Shown here: one piece after another, positions 42,897 through 62,430 of the stretch
Numbering within the stretch: the stretch's first letter is position 1
Layout of the letters: every line of letters starts with the position of its first letter
Assembly: GCF_900110755.1 (NCBI RefSeq)
Contig: NZ_FOFF01000006.1
Span: 1 to 64,000, forward strand
Direction: 5' to 3'
Length of the DNA: 64,000 bases
From: Streptomyces sp. yr375
GTDB taxonomy: Bacteria; Actinomycetota; Actinomycetes; Streptomycetales; Streptomycetaceae
Translations under genes and position numbers: made by a program
The notes under the pieces: model-generated
Database searches by the model: none
The model's input: the letters and a program-made list of their open reading frames with translations, nothing else
What the model was told of the DNA's origin: nothing

Positions 42897-43451
42897 TCAG
42901 AACAGCGGCTCGGGCAGGACTCCCTCCAGCGCCAGCAGCTTCCGCTTGGTCTCCAGACCGCCGCCGAAGCCGCCGATGCCGCCGTCCCTCTCCACGACCC
43001 GGTGGCAGGGCACCACGACCGGCAGGGGATTGGAACCCATCGCCACCCCCACCGCCTGCGCCGCCCCCGGCTGCCCCACCCGCCTGGCCAGATCGCCGTA
43101 GCCGACGACCGCCCCGTACGGGACGCCCGAGGCGAGTTCGCGCAGCACCTGCCGGTTGAAGCCCGCGATCAGGGACCAGTCCAACGGCAGCTCGAAGGCG
43201 CGCCGCTCACCCGCGAAGTAGGCCTCGACCTGCCGTATCGCCTCGGCCAGCAGCGGCGAGTCGGGCGCCTCGACGGGCTCCGTGCCCAGCCGGCCCGCCA
43301 GCCGGTCGAGTGCCTTGTCCCGCACCGCGTCGGTGGCGTGGAACACGACGTTGAGCAGACCCTCGCGGGTCGCGGCCAGCAACAACGGACCGATGTCGGT
43401 ACCGACGACGGTCCACACGACCTGCTGCTCGTACTGCCCATGGCTGTCCAT
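42897..43451 (-). CDS. ogt: methylated-DNA-[protein]-cysteine S-methyltransferase
   Basis: 184 aa. Repairs O6-alkylguanine by transferring the alkyl group to Cys149 in the PCHRVV active site, with the downstream GGIGGFGGGLETKRKLL region of the family; the Asn hinge is in GVAMGSNPLPVVVPCH. It acts once and is not regenerated. The ATG at 43451 lies seven bases after TACGGT, so the mRNA is probably leaderless. That TACGGT is the -10 of an exact PafBC-type DNA-damage promoter. Confidence 0.95.
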   Translation of the reverse strand: MDSHGQYEQQVVWTVVGTDIGPLLLAATREGLLNVVFHATDAVRDKALDRLAGRLGTEPVEAPDSPLLAEAIRQVEAYFAGERRAFELPLDWSLIAGFNRQVLRELASGVPYGAVVGYGDLARRVGQPGAAQAVGVAMGSNPLPVVVPCHRVVERDGGIGGFGGGLETKRKLLALEGVLPEPLF

Positions 43452-43457
43452 GCGCCC

Positions 43458-43480
43458 ACCGTACGACCTGCCACTGACAA
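43458..43480 (-). promoter_or_regulatory. PafBC/RecA-NDp DNA-damage promoter of ogt
   Basis: Minus strand: TTGTCAGTG (43480-43472), 8-bp spacer, TACGGT (43463-43458). It matches TTGTCRGTG-N8-TAnnnT at every fixed position. Confidence 0.9.
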
Positions 43481-45593: not shown

Positions 45594-45616
45594 TTGTCAG
45601 TGGGGGGTCGTACGGT
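45594..45616 (+). promoter_or_regulatory. PafBC/RecA-NDp DNA-damage promoter of uvrB
   Basis: TTGTCAGTG (45594-45602), 8-bp spacer, TACGGT (45611-45616): an exact match to TTGTCRGTG-N8-TAnnnT. The uvrB ATG begins seven bases after the -10, implying a leaderless transcript. Confidence 0.92.
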
Positions 45617-45623
45617 GGATGGC

Positions 45624-47768
45624 ATGCGGCCCGTTTCCCACATCGAACGCACGGTGGCGCCTTTCGAGGTCGTCAGCCCCTACCAGCCCAGCGGCGACCA
45701 GCCTGCGGCCATCGCCGAGCTGTCCCGGCGCATCGAGGCCGGCGAGAAGGACGTCGTCCTGCTCGGCGCGACCGGCACCGGAAAGTCCGCGACCACCGCG
45801 TGGATGATCGAGAAGCTCCAGCGCCCCACCCTGGTGATGGCGCCGAACAAGACCCTGGCCGCCCAACTGGCGAACGAGTTCCGCGAACTGCTGCCGAACA
45901 ACGCGGTCGAATACTTCGTCTCCTACTACGACTACTACCAGCCCGAGGCGTACGTCCCGCAGTCGGACACCTACATCGAGAAGGACTCCTCGATCAACGA
46001 GGAGGTCGAGCGCCTGCGCCACTCCGCGACCAACTCGCTGCTCACCCGCCGGGACGTCATCGTGGTCGCCTCGGTCTCCTGCATCTACGGCCTCGGTACT
46101 CCACAGGAGTACGTGGACCGGATGGTCCCCCTCAGAGTCGGCGACGAACTCGACCGGGACCAGTTGCTGCGCCGCTTCGTCGACATCCAGTACACGCGCA
46201 ACGACCTGGCGTTCACCCGCGGCACCTTCCGGGTGCGCGGCGACACCATCGAGATCTTCCCGGTCTACGAGGAACTCGCCGTCCGCATCGAGATGTTCGG
46301 CGACGAGATCGAGGCCCTGTCCACACTCCACCCGCTGACCGGCGAGATCATCAGCGACGACGAGCACCTGTACGTCTTCCCGGCCACCCACTACGTCGCG
46401 GGCCCCGAGCGCCTGGAGCGGGCGGCCAACGACATCGAGAAGGAGCTCGGCGAGCGGCTGGCCGAGCTGGAGAAGCAGAGCAAGCTCCTGGAGGCCCAGC
46501 GGCTGCGGATGCGGACCACGTACGACCTGGAGATGCTCCGCCAGATCGGCTCCTGCTCCGGTGTGGAGAACTACTCGATGCACTTCGACGGCCGCCTGCC
46601 CGGCTCCCCGCCGAACACCCTGCTCGACTACTTCCCGGACGACTTCCTGCTCGTCATCGACGAGTCCCACAACACCGTCCCGCAGATCGGCGCCATGTAC
46701 GAGGGCGACGCCTCCCGCAAGCGCACCCTCGTCGACCACGGCTTCCGGCTGCCCTCCGCGCTCGACAACCGGCCCCTGAAGTGGGAGGAGTTCCAGGAGC
46801 GCGTCGGACAGACCGTCTACCTGTCGGCGACGCCCGGCAAGTACGAACTCTCGCGCGGGGACGGCGTCGTGGAGCAGATCATCCGCCCCACCGGCCTCAT
46901 CGACCCGGAGGTCGTCGTCAAGCCCACCGAGGGGCAGATCGACGACCTGGTGCACGAGATCCGGGAGCGCGTCGAGAAGGACGAACGCGTCCTGGTCACC
47001 ACACTCACCAAGAAGATGGCCGAGGACCTCACCGACTACTTCCTGGAACTCGGCATCCAGGTGCGCTACCTGCACAGCGACGTCGACACGCTGCGCCGTA
47101 TCGAGCTGCTGCGCGAGCTGCGCTCCGGCGAGTTCGACGTCCTGGTCGGCATCAACCTGCTGCGTGAGGGCCTCGACCTGCCCGAAGTGTCCCTGGTGGC
47201 GATCCTCGACGCCGACAAGGAGGGCTTCCTGCGCTCCGGCACCTCGCTGATCCAGACCATCGGCCGCGCGGCGCGCAACGTCTCCGGCCAGGTCCACATG
47301 TACGCCGACAAGATCACCCCGGCGATGGAGCGGGCCATCGAGGAGACCAACCGCCGCCGGGAGAAGCAGGTCGCCTACAACACGGCGAAAGGCCTCGACC
47401 CGCAGCCGCTCCGCAAGAAGATCAACGACATCGTCGCGCAGATCGCCCGCGAGGAGGTCGACACGGAGCAGTTGCTCGGCTCCGGCTACCGCGCGAAGAA
47501 GGACGGGCGGGGCACCAAGGCCCCGGTGCCCTCCCTCGGCGACAAGGCGGCCAAGGGCGCGAAGTCCAAGACGGCCAAGGGCAGGGCCAAGGAGACGGTG
47601 CCGACCGACCGTCCCGCGGCCGAACTCGCCGGACAGATCGAGGAGATGACGGAACGCATGCGGGCCGCCGCGGCGGACCTCCAGTTCGAGGTCGCCGCCC
47701 GGATCCGCGACGAGGTCTCCGAGATGAAGAAGGAACTGCGCCAGATGAGGGAGGCGGGTCTGGCCTGA
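45624..47768 (+). CDS. uvrB: UvrABC system protein B
   Basis: 714 aa. DNA-damage verification helicase of nucleotide-excision repair: loaded by UvrA and then binds UvrC. Walker [19 protein letters not shown] (about residues 38-55), beta-hairpin [20 protein letters not shown], motif [15 protein letters not shown], helicase C motifs with [29 protein letters not shown] and QTIGRAARN, and a C-terminal UVR domain ([27 protein letters not shown]) that contacts UvrC. A Lys/Ala/Gly-rich segment (about 625-660) is an actinobacterial insertion before the UVR domain. Confidence 0.97.
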
Positions 47769-47849
47769 CGGACCCGTGTGGCCGCTGTGCCCGGGCCGCG
47801 CACATGCTGTGTTGCAAGACCGACACAAAGTGCGGGCCTGGGTGGGGCA

Positions 47850-47872
47850 TTGTCAGTGGCTTTGCGTAGGGT
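47850..47872 (+). promoter_or_regulatory. PafBC/RecA-NDp-type promoter of the terD operon
   Basis: TTGTCAGTG (47850-47858), 8-bp spacer, TAGGGT (47867-47872): an exact match to the DNA-damage motif. It leaves a leader of about 50 nt before the GTG at 47930. Confidence 0.9.
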
Positions 47873-47929
47873 TTCCGTCAACCGCGGGGTCCGCGGCAAC
47901 AGGGGACAGTCCGAGAGAGGAATCAGCGC

Positions 47930-48508
47930 GTGACCGTCAACATGACCAAGGGTCAGGCCATCAGTCTGCAGAAGCACGACGGGGGCAGTCTGACCGCGGT
48001 GCGCATGGGCCTCGGCTGGCAGGCGGCCCCGCGGCGCGGCCTGTTCGGCTCCCGGACCCGGGAGATCGACCTCGACGCCTCCGCCGTCCTGTTCGCGGAC
48101 AAGCAGCCGGTCGACGTCGTCTTCTTCCGCCACCTGGTGAGCGACGACGGCTCGGTCCGCCACACCGGTGACAACCTCGTCGGCGGTGTCGGCCAGGGCG
48201 GCGACGACGAGGCGATCCTCGTCGACCTCGCGCGCGTGCCGGTGCACATCGACCAGATCATCTTCACCGTGAACTCCTTCACCGGCCAGACGTTCCAGGA
48301 AGTGCAGAACGCGTTCTGCCGTCTGGTCGACGAGACCAACGGCCAGGAGCTCGCGCGCTACACGCTCGCCGGCGGCGGCGCGTACACGGCGCAGATCATG
48401 GCGAAGGTGCACCGCGTGGGCGCGGGCTGGAACATGACGGCCCTGGGCTCGCCGGCCAACGGCCGCACCTTCCAGGACCTGATGCCCGCCATCCTGCCCG
48501 CGCTGTAG
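47930..48508 (+). CDS. terD: TerD family protein
   Basis: 192 aa, a single TerD domain: QAISLQKHDGGSLTAVRMGLGW at the start, IDLDASAVLFADKQPVDVVFFRHL with the Ca2+-binding acidic residues, GDNLVGGVGQGGDDEAILVDLARVPVHIDQIIFTVNSF (key GDN..G.G.GDDE), and a conserved Met/Trp end. TerD proteins bind Ca2+ and belong to tellurite, phage and chemical-stress systems. GTG 47930 follows GAGAGAGG at nine bases; an ATG at 47942 is an alternative. First gene of an operon with the TerD-FtsK-like gene. Confidence 0.93.
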   Translation: MTVNMTKGQAISLQKHDGGSLTAVRMGLGWQAAPRRGLFGSRTREIDLDASAVLFADKQPVDVVFFRHLVSDDGSVRHTGDNLVGGVGQGGDDEAILVDLARVPVHIDQIIFTVNSFTGQTFQEVQNAFCRLVDETNGQELARYTLAGGGAYTAQIMAKVHRVGAGWNMTALGSPANGRTFQDLMPAILPAL

Positions 48509-48560
48509 ACGGCGAGCGGCACCCGACGACACCACACGCGACGCAGGGGGACGACAGGCG

Positions 48561-50606
48561 ATGACGGCCGAGCTGGTGCGGGGGCAGAACCACCCGCTCT
48601 CCCAGGTCCGGCTCGAGATCCGGGTCTCGGCCGGCCGACCAGTGGTGGCGGCGGCCACGCTCGGCGACGAGAACGGCAAGGTCCACGGCGTCGAATGGGT
48701 GGCCCACCCGGGCGTGCCCACGCTGCCCGGCCTGGAGGTCTCCCGGCAGGCCGCCGCCGACCACCGCCTCGCGGTGGACCTGGACGCCATGCCTGCTGCC
48801 GTGCACCGGATCGCCGTCCTGCTCGCACTGCCCACGGGCGCCGGGGGACCAAGCAGCTTCGGCTCCGTCGCGGCCCCCTTCGTCGCGGTCACCGGGCTCG
48901 ACGGCACCGAGGTCGCCACCTACACCCTCACCGGCCTGGACGCGGAGTCGGCGGTCGTCGCACTGGAGCTGTACCGGCGACAGGGCGCCTGGAAGGTGCG
49001 CGCCGTCGGCCAGGGCTACGCGGGCGGCCTCGCCGAACTCCTCACCGACCAGGGCCTGCCCCAGGCACACCGGCTCGCGGCCGGTATCCACGACGCCGTC
49101 GCCCAGGGCCTGGCCCGCTCGGTACCGGCGCCGCCGCCGCGTACGGCCGACGGCGACCGCTCCCGGCAGGCGGCCGCGTCCGCACTCGGCCCCGACCAGA
49201 GCGGCTCACCGTACGGCCCGCAGCAAGGCACCCAAGGCAGCACACAGGGTTCCACCGGCCCGTACGGGCCGTACGGCCCGGCCCAGGATCCGCAGGGCCC
49301 CTCGGGACCGGGAACCGGCCACCCGGCGGGGAGCACGCCGACGGAGCCCGCGGTCACCCACACGACGTCGCCCGCGGCACCCGCCACCGGCGGTCCGATC
49401 GACTACAGCCACCCGCGCCGGCAGAGCGCGCCGCCACCTCCGCCGCCCACCGCGCCCCCGGCCCAGCCCGGGCAGCCCGCCCGGCCGGTGGCGGGTGACG
49501 CGACCGGCTGGTCCATGGAGGAGCGGCTCTACAACCAGGTCTGGGGCATGTTCGAGGACCTGGCCCGCAGCACGGCCGCGTTCCGCAGCGCCGTCGACTT
49601 CGCCGACGCGCGGCTGGACAAGGAACTCGACCAGGCCCTGTCCGACCCGCGCAGCAGGATCGGCGGCCAGGGCGACGCCGCCCGCGAGGCGGCGCAGGCC
49701 AAACACGCCCAGCTCGTCGACCGGGCCCGGGAGGCCCTGGACCGGGATCTCGGCCAGCTCGGCGCCGAGGCCGACGTCGTCGAACCGGCGCTGCCCGCCG
49801 CGTACGCGCGCTGGGACAACCCCGTCTGGCATGCCTACCGCGTCCCCATGGAGATGCCCATGGCGGTGCGCCTGGGCGACCTCCACCTGCCCGAGAGCGA
49901 CCCGCTGCGCATCCCGATGCTGGTGCGCCTCCCGCTCGAGCGCGGCCTGTGGATCGACAGCGGGACGACGGCCTCGTCCGGGTCGTTCGCCGACTCCCGC
50001 GAACTGCGGCGCCTGGCCATGGAGTCGGCCGTGGCGCACATCGCCCGGCTGCTGGCGGTGCACCCGGCGGGCGAGTTCACCGTGCACGTCGTCGACCCGG
50101 CCGGTTCGGGCGCCCGGGAACTGACGCCGCTGGTGCGGACCGGGGTGCTCGCGGCCCCGCCCGCCGCCGGCGCGGCAGGCGTCGCGGCGCTCCTGGGCCG
50201 GCTCACCGAGCGCGTCGACCTGGTGCACATGGCGGTGCGCGGCGGCGCGGCCGACTCGCTCCCGCCCGGCTTCGACACCGCCCAGCAGCTCCTGGTCGTC
50301 AACGACTTCCCGCACGGCTTCGACGACCGTGCCGTGACCCAACTGCGCTACCTCGCGGACGAAGGCCCCGCCGTCGGCGTCCACCTGATGATGGTCGCCG
50401 ACCGGGAGGACGCCGACGACTACGGTCCGTTGCTGGACCCGCTGTGGCGGGGGCTGCTGCGGCTGACGCCGGTGCCCGAGGACCACCTCGCCGACCCCTG
50501 GGTGGGACACGCCTGGACGTACGAACCGGCCCTCGTGCCGCCCGGCAGCCAGGTGCTCCAGCAGGTCCTCGCCCAAGTGGCGACGGCTCGCACCAAGTAC
50601 ACGTAA
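48561..50606 (+). CDS. large TerD-related protein with FtsK/SpoIIIE-like C-terminal region
   Basis: 681 aa in three parts. Residues about 1-190 are a TerD-like beta domain (ELVRGQNHPLSQVRLEIRVS, VALELYRRQGAWKVRAVGQGYAGGLAELL). A Gly/Pro/Gln-rich linker follows (about 195-310). The C-terminal half (about 320-680) begins EERLYNQVWGMFEDLARSTAAF, a helical coiled segment with RARE..LDRDLGQL, and then an FtsK-like alpha/beta region with VRLPLERGLWIDSG, LVVNDFPHGFDDRAVTQLRYLADEGPAVGVHLMMVADRED. It lacks a recognisable Walker A, so it is probably a non-catalytic FtsK relative. It lies 52 bp after terD. Confidence 0.8.
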   Translation: MTAELVRGQNHPLSQVRLEIRVSAGRPVVAAATLGDENGKVHGVEWVAHPGVPTLPGLEVSRQAAADHRLAVDLDAMPAAVHRIAVLLALPTGAGGPSSFGSVAAPFVAVTGLDGTEVATYTLTGLDAESAVVALELYRRQGAWKVRAVGQGYAGGLAELLTDQGLPQAHRLAAGIHDAVAQGLARSVPAPPPRTADGDRSRQAAASALGPDQSGSPYGPQQGTQGSTQGSTGPYGPYGPAQDPQGPSGPGTGHPAGSTPTEPAVTHTTSPAAPATGGPIDYSHPRRQSAPPPPPPTAPPAQPGQPARPVAGDATGWSMEERLYNQVWGMFEDLARSTAAFRSAVDFADARLDKELDQALSDPRSRIGGQGDAAREAAQAKHAQLVDRAREALDRDLGQLGAEADVVEPALPAAYARWDNPVWHAYRVPMEMPMAVRLGDLHLPESDPLRIPMLVRLPLERGLWIDSGTTASSGSFADSRELRRLAMESAVAHIARLLAVHPAGEFTVHVVDPAGSGARELTPLVRTGVLAAPPAAGAAGVAALLGRLTERVDLVHMAVRGGAADSLPPGFDTAQQLLVVNDFPHGFDDRAVTQLRYLADEGPAVGVHLMMVADREDADDYGPLLDPLWRGLLRLTPVPEDHLADPWVGHAWTYEPALVPPGSQVLQQVLAQVATARTKYT

Positions 50607-50829: not shown

Positions 50830-51831
50830 GTGGATGTTTCCGTGACCCTATGGGTCCTGACCATCGTGGGCCTGGCGGCCCTCATCGGGGTCGACTTCTT
50901 CATCGGCCGCAAGCCGCACGACGTGTCGATCAAGGAAGCCGGGATCTGGACCGTCGTATGGATCGCCCTGGCCGGGCTCTTCGGGCTCGGCCTGCTGCTC
51001 TTCAGCGGCGGTGCGCCCGCCGGCGAGTTCTTCGCGGGCTTCATCACCGAGAAGTCGCTGAGCGTCGACAACCTGTTCGTCTTCGTCCTGATCATGGCGA
51101 AGTTCGCGGTCCCGTCGCAGTACCAGCAGCGGGTCCTGCTCGTCGGCGTCCTCATAGCCCTGGTGCTGCGGGCGATCTTCATCGCCGCGGGCGCCGCGAT
51201 CCTCGCCAGCTTCGCCTGGGTGTTCTACATCTTCGGCGCCTTCCTGATCTGGACCGCCTGGAAGCTCATCCAGGAGGCCCGGGCCGACGAGGAGGACGAG
51301 GAGTTCGAGGAGAACAAGCTGCTCCAGGCGGTGGAGAAGCGCTTCGGCGTCGCCGACCGCTACCACGGCACGAAGCTGTGGATCGAGCAGAACGGCAAGC
51401 GGGTCATGACCCCGATGCTGGTCGTGATGCTCGCGATCGGTACGACCGACGTGCTCTTCGCGCTCGACTCGATCCCCGCGATCTTCGGTCTGACGCAGGA
51501 CCCGTACATCGTCTTCACCGCCAACGCGTTCGCGCTGATGGGCCTCAGGCAGCTCTACTTCCTCATCGGCGGCCTGCTGAAGAAGCTGGTCCACCTCAGC
51601 TACGGCCTGTCGGTCATCCTCGGCTTCATCGGCGTGAAGCTGGTGCTGCACGCGCTGCACGAGTCCGGGGTCCACGTCCCCGAGATCAGCATCCCGGTCT
51701 CGCTCGGCGTCATCTGCTCCGTCCTGATCATCACCACGATCACCAGCCTGCGCGCCTCCAAGAAGCAGGCGGCGGCCGAAGCGGCACAGCCGGCGAGCGA
51801 AAGCGCTCCGAAGGACAGCATCGGCGCCTGA
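50830..51831 (+). CDS. terC: TerC family membrane protein (probable Mn2+ exporter)
   Basis: 333 aa, about eight or nine helices. TerC signatures: ALIGVDFFIGRKPHDVSIKEA, FITEKSLSVDNLFVFVLIM (the EKSLSVDN metal-site motif), MLVVMLAIGTTDVLFALDSIPAIFGLTQDPYIVFTANAFALMGLRQLYFL (key D..FA.DSIPA). Homologues (Alx/TerC) export Mn2+ and may metallate secreted enzymes. The GTG at 50830 has GGAGG four bases upstream. The riboswitch leader and position after terD indicate Mn-responsive expression. Confidence 0.93.
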   Translation: MDVSVTLWVLTIVGLAALIGVDFFIGRKPHDVSIKEAGIWTVVWIALAGLFGLGLLLFSGGAPAGEFFAGFITEKSLSVDNLFVFVLIMAKFAVPSQYQQRVLLVGVLIALVLRAIFIAAGAAILASFAWVFYIFGAFLIWTAWKLIQEARADEEDEEFEENKLLQAVEKRFGVADRYHGTKLWIEQNGKRVMTPMLVVMLAIGTTDVLFALDSIPAIFGLTQDPYIVFTANAFALMGLRQLYFLIGGLLKKLVHLSYGLSVILGFIGVKLVLHALHESGVHVPEISIPVSLGVICSVLIITTITSLRASKKQAAAEAAQPASESAPKDSIGA

Positions 51832-59338: not shown

Positions 59339-59361
59339 TTGTCAGTGGCTCCCCCTAGTCT
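59339..59361 (+). promoter_or_regulatory. PafBC/RecA-NDp DNA-damage promoter of uvrA
   Basis: TTGTCAGTG (59339-59347), 8-bp spacer, TAGTCT (59356-59361): an exact match to TTGTCRGTG-N8-TAnnnT, 55 bp upstream of the uvrA start. Confidence 0.92.
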
Positions 59362-59394: not shown

Positions 59395-59415
59395 TCAAGA
59401 AAGGTGCGGACCGGC

Positions 59416-62430
<3,015 letters not shown>

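Follow-up and report, generated by a model that had tools for sequence, protein, structure and literature searches.

A labile PafBC-type promoter element and a conserved putative operator upstream of terD in Streptomyces sp. yr375

Introduction

Just downstream of uvrB in Streptomyces sp. yr375, a terD gene is preceded by a promoter motif of the kind that accompanies DNA-repair genes. This arrangement raises the question of whether DNA damage is what switches on terD and the TerD-fusion gene that follows it. An initial annotation of this DNA had answered that it is, and had placed the two genes in the regulon served by PafBC. Single-stranded DNA activates this system, whereupon PafB engages the −26 motif and a contact forms between PafC and sigma domain 4 (PMC11804915). 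RecA-NDp promoters have already been published for Streptomyces (Ahel 2002 and Gamulin 2004, as cited in PMC5087735), and SCO6735 of S. coelicolor, a gene with a promoter of this type, is induced by UV (PMC5087735). An initial search for the M. smegmatis PafBC motif in S. venezuelae, part of a 2022 study of DNA damage, came back negative, and the study left open whether Streptomyces has a RecA/LexA-independent response (PMC9380542). The same annotation considered a connection between Ter functions and DNA damage to be not generally described. This statement was too strong, because an E. coli ter operon confers about 5-fold higher UVC survival and the TerB and TerD proteins of D. radiodurans rise after UVC/vacuum, so that Ter proteins of both organisms had been tied to UV/DNA-damage resistance before (PMC8123226).

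Results and Discussion

Genes of the locus

The window, that is, the whole stretch of DNA analysed, comprises 64,000 nucleotides (contig NZ_FOFF01000006.1, positions 1 to 64,000). In it, uvrB (45624..47768, plus strand; NCBIfam PRK05298/TIGR00631, E = 0) and terD (47930..48508, plus strand) lie in tandem, separated by a gap of 161 bp. The terD gene has a GTG start and encodes a 192-aa TerD-domain protein (PF02342, 1.6e-41). The TerD-fusion gene (48561..50606, plus strand) begins 52 nt after it, with no terminator-like site found between the two, and encodes a 681-aa protein with an N-terminal TerD domain (PF02342, 1.3e-20). Both TerD proteins score above the curated PF02342 cut-off. The window also includes ogt, coding for a methylated-DNA-protein-cysteine methyltransferase (42897..43451, minus strand; TIGR00589, 6.7e-27), and uvrA (59404..62430, plus strand), which was identified by reading the sequence and has in-frame GTG starts at 59404 and 59416. 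A gene of the TerC/Alx metal-homeostasis family (50830-51831; TIGR03718, 2.1e-114) was observed about 220 nt past the TerD-fusion gene. A search of the window with Rfam gave no match, and no riboswitch was detected at threshold before the TerC/Alx gene.

The promoter motif upstream of terD

The gap between the uvrB stop (47768) and the terD GTG (47930) contains an exact match to the PafBC-type −26 element, TTGTCAGTG (47850..47858, plus strand), followed by eight nucleotides and TAGGGT. The full site, TTGTCAGTGGCTTTGCGTAGGGT, occupies 47850-47872 of the plus strand and reads TTGTCAGTG-GCTTTGCG-TAGGGT, as initially annotated. The accompanying statement that an identical motif precedes three repair genes was equally accurate, since exact sites were read upstream of uvrB (45594..45616, plus strand), ogt (43458..43480, minus strand) and uvrA (59339..59361, plus strand). 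The terD promoter therefore has the combination that defines members of the regulon, a TTGTC(A/G)GTG element at −26 and 8 nt to TANNNT. The core pattern TGTCAGTG-N8-TANNNT occurs four times in the window and was absent from each of 100 dinucleotide-preserving shuffles. The −10 is of the extended type (TGCG-TAGGGT, TGCGTAGGGT; 47863..47872, plus strand) and is nearly invariant across Streptomyces. The terD gene begins 57 nt past this −10. With transcription predicted to start near 47879, the leader would be about 51 nt long; the predicted fold of the leader RNA was no better than that of shuffled sequences (z = −0.22).

A repair regulon in the genome

The core pattern was found 55 times in the 9.07-Mb genome and the reversed-pattern control once, and the stricter TTGTC(A/G)GTG form gave 36 matches compared to 2 for its control. 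The 54 sites outside the window were fetched together with the downstream reading frames where present, and most of these were scanned by Pfam. The genes that carry the motif include recA, xseA (exonuclease VII), two UvrD-type helicases, a DinG-like helicase and RecD2, a PD-(D/E)XK nuclease, endonuclease III (nth, HhH-GPD), an exonuclease III-like enzyme (xth) and uracil-DNA glycosylase (ung), as well as DNA polymerase III alpha (dnaE), a beta-clamp protein, dnaX, a DnaQ-like exonuclease and rpsF. The RecA-NDp-type motif is a real regulon signal that marks DNA-repair genes in this genome. At 20 of the 54 sites a start codon is located 6-7 nt past the −10, as expected for leaderless transcripts, and the start predicted for terD near 47879 fits this spacing. 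At 22 of 58 genome sites the element begins with a base other than T, among them those of the UvrD, Nth, ExoIII, DnaX and RecD2 genes. Two adjacent WYL-domain genes (C29:111921-113117) are most simply read as pafB and pafC, given their adjacency and their family; a DEAD-helicase gene bearing the motif (L086) is located 2-3 kb from this pair. Around the genome's remaining TerD loci, none of the fetched stretches contained the motif.

The number of sites and their repair-gene content indicate that a PafBC-type regulon exists in this Streptomyces, and the regulon gains named members that can be tested, including the terD operon and a Wadjet defence system. The latter is a complete type II cassette, JetA2-JetB2-JetC2-JetD2 (L216:1-9000; C34:160545 onward in the same genome), with an exact RecA-NDp motif (TTGTCAGTGGTGGCCTTTACGGT) 59 nt upstream, a placement that would tie this anti-plasmid defence to a promoter signal of DNA damage. 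The core motif was also observed before genes for a SUKH-4 protein, an HNH endonuclease, a leucine-rich-repeat protein and an ECF sigma factor (L111, L112, L116, L127), possible and unexpected members of the regulon.

A conserved putative operator specific to terD

The most strongly conserved feature of the terD promoter is a different site that the initial annotation, although right about the motif, had overlooked. It is a palindrome-like putative operator of 21 bp, GTGTTGCAAGACCGACACAAA (47809..47829, plus strand), which is only partly palindromic (GTGTnG-N6-CnACAC) and whose midpoint falls at −61.5 if transcription starts at 47879 as predicted. The operator shows hardly any variation across the 81 near relatives: 19 of its 21 columns are invariant, and the other two, 47818 and 47820, are conserved in 78/81 and 75/81 loci. 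The possibility that it forms part of the end of uvrB was rejected: the operator lies anywhere from 12 to 222 nt past the uvrB stop, whereas the gap between it and the −10 is 40 nt in 70 of 74 relatives and 39-41 nt in all of them. The near-constant gap indicates that the operator belongs to terD.

These distances also bear on a read-through explanation, in which most terD expression would originate at the uvrB promoter, under PafBC control, and the gap would hold accessory sites. The tandem order, the length of the gap and the failure to find a terminator-like site from 47700 on agree with read-through, but a conserved extended −10 just ahead of terD, together with an operator at a set distance from it, implies that the gene has its own promoter, and the variable distance between uvrB and the operator also argues against it. 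We regard this explanation as very improbable.

Class I activators, which touch RNA polymerase from the upstream side, classically bind at −61.5, and a protein that binds this operator would for this reason most likely be an activator. The CRP, Rex and WhiA GACAC motifs were considered, and none was assigned to this site. The genome contains the operator only once. No support was obtained for a wider regulon under this operator, since the degenerate palindrome was found in 4 places compared to 10 for the control, and a search allowing 3 mismatches returned 7 and 8, respectively. The near-invariant site is a direct handle for finding the regulator of a Ter gene, of which we found none described. 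Two variants of the region were observed. One locus (L150) has a second, partial copy of the operator (GTGTGTCGCAAGCC) directly before the conserved one, and the PafBC element is missing. One group of Streptomyces (L163, L170, L171, L173, L175, L178) has lost the operator, the spacer and most of the gap; in these loci GTCAGTAGGGT immediately follows the uvrB stop, and a GTCAG runs into the −10 without a spacer.

Conservation of the PafBC element

The near-relative set consisted of 80 Streptomyces loci with the neighbouring gene, 81 when the window is included. The uvrB site is exact in 79 of the 80 relatives and the terD site in 2 (3/81 with the window). In the relatives the −26 consensus of terD is CTGTC(A/G)GTG, found at the same position and usually with C as the first base, and 69 of the 81 loci have a correctly spaced core. 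Since the first base varies within the regulon, the CTGTCAGTG of the relatives can still work.

Substitutions were counted on a tree of terD coding sequences. In a comparison of 74 species, which took only loci where the uvrB motif was found (a rule that dropped one of the 80), the uvrB element had undergone no changes compared to a spacer mean of 7.0 (P = 2e-5), and the terD core 3.1 changes per column compared to 7.2 for the spacer (P = 0.02). When the tree was extended to 120 species the values for the terD core and the spacer were 14.4 and 17.4, and the slowdown was not significant (P = 0.16). The corresponding value for the −10 region was 2.7, and the core underwent about 16 gains or losses over the same 120 species. 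An even sample of the genus, 150 Streptomyces genomes, included 76 with both the operator and the −10; the PafBC core was found in 45 of these, with the exact form in 2, and was absent from 31. A terD-like match was present in 29 of 30 sampled genomes without the operator/−10 pattern, and where orthologous promoters were read among such genomes the core was found in 2/27 and absent in 25/27. By extrapolation from these sequences, about one third of Streptomyces species may carry the core.

The initial annotation had in effect considered the terD operon a full, conserved member of the PafBC/RecA-NDp regulon with damage as its main inducer. An exact motif in a verified regulon, located beside uvrB and with a core that evolves more slowly among near relatives, is what such a member would have. 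However, the element is patchy across the genus, as its repeated gain or loss indicates, the uvrB element is frozen in the same genomes, and the other operator is far more conserved, which together make full membership rather unlikely. At the other extreme, the TTGTCAGTG match could be a product of drift between −30 and −20 in a promoter of the extended −10 type, with the regulator at the operator acting alone and PafBC having no role. The non-significant constraint over 120 species, the C that is the consensus first base and the intact operator and −10 of lineages without the element are all consistent with drift. Against it, the 8-base core with an exact N8 recurs where the spacer is otherwise unalignable (G131, G153, G184, G198, L167, L174), and the genome-wide rate of false matches is about 1 in 55. 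We consider drift unlikely.

A proposed two-input promoter

The reading that we favour, with a probability of roughly 0.6, is that the terD operon is under a putative separate regulator, with a labile, secondary PafBC element superimposed. The claim that terD belongs to the DNA-damage regulon is upheld in part. The real motif, the repair regulon around it, the pafB-pafC-like genes, the lack of the motif in the stretches fetched around other TerD loci and the slower core in the 74 species speak for it, but the rarity of the exact form, the many Streptomyces that lack the core, the result over 120 species and the frozen uvrB site do not. A link to DNA damage is plausible, as is membership of terD in the damage regulon for this species and those closely related to it; judged from the promoter sequences, the main switch of the operon is probably not damage.

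According to this two-regulator reading, terD and the TerD-fusion gene would be transcribed together from one promoter just downstream of uvrB, with the basal machinery using the housekeeping-sigma extended −10. A putative regulator, most likely an activator, would bind the 21-bp operator, and the −26 element would let PafBC activated by single-stranded DNA recruit RNA polymerase after DNA damage. In this species and its near relatives, part of the operon's expression would then be inducible by damage, as with uvrB, uvrA, ogt and recA, through an input that appears secondary and evolutionarily labile. More tentatively, the terD promoter might integrate two inputs, one from a dedicated, undescribed regulator at a single-copy operator that stays nearly intact in much of the genus and the other from PafBC, added or removed by evolution, so that in some species the DNA-damage response could have taken on a TerD-FtsK/EccC-like protein.

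We take SCO1965 of S. coelicolor to be the probable terD orthologue, going by the gene order. This protein, annotated as a tellurium-resistance protein, has been detected in proteomes without DNA damage (PMC7244524, PMC3293853). If the orthology is correct, damage is not needed for its expression.

The terD site shares with known actinobacterial RecA-NDp/PafBC promoters (recA of S. rimosus and M. tuberculosis; SCO6735) the −26 TTGTCAGTG, the 8-nt spacer and the TANNNT −10, and in both cases the motif serves a repair-gene regulon in the same genome. Unlike those promoters, the terD orthologues usually have C in place of the first T, an extended −10 (TGCG) and a second operator at −61.5, together with a leader of about 51 nt and an element that was lost in many species.

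The TerD-fusion protein

In the 681-aa protein a proline-rich, variable linker connects the N-terminal TerD domain to a C-terminal domain of ATPase fold. The full-length model was poor (pLDDT 43) and its structure search was uninformative beyond TerD. A model of residues 311-681 reached a pLDDT of 85, and its best Foldseek matches were EccC and FtsK (to 1.4e-6), with the motor domains of EssC and TcpA also matched. Alignment of these C-terminal 371 residues to 4n1a, 5fv0, FtsK and TcpA gave VIA-align Z values of 16-19. The protein thus has its fold in common with the EccC/EssC and FtsK/HerA ATPases, but differs from them in being joined to TerD and in having no Walker A motif (GxxxxGK[ST]), which was absent from the aligned orthologues as read from the alignments. 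The "FtsK-like" label of the initial annotation is appropriate at the level of the fold and not at that of the motif. The model suggests a degenerate member of the EccC/FtsK/HerA-like ATPase fold and, as Walker A is missing, ATP-driven DNA translocation should not be assumed.

The Ter operons of Mycobacteriales carry genes for a phosphoribosyltransferase, the StiP protease, an aldolase and a HAD hydrolase, whereas the window has only terD and the TerD fusion, beside uvrB, and TerC/Alx after a further gap; TerD-domain proteins are common to both. The RecA-NDp motif was not seen in the three Mycobacteriales Ter loci examined. A related TerD-fusion gene was found in full Ter operons on plasmids of Mycolicibacterium and Prescottella.
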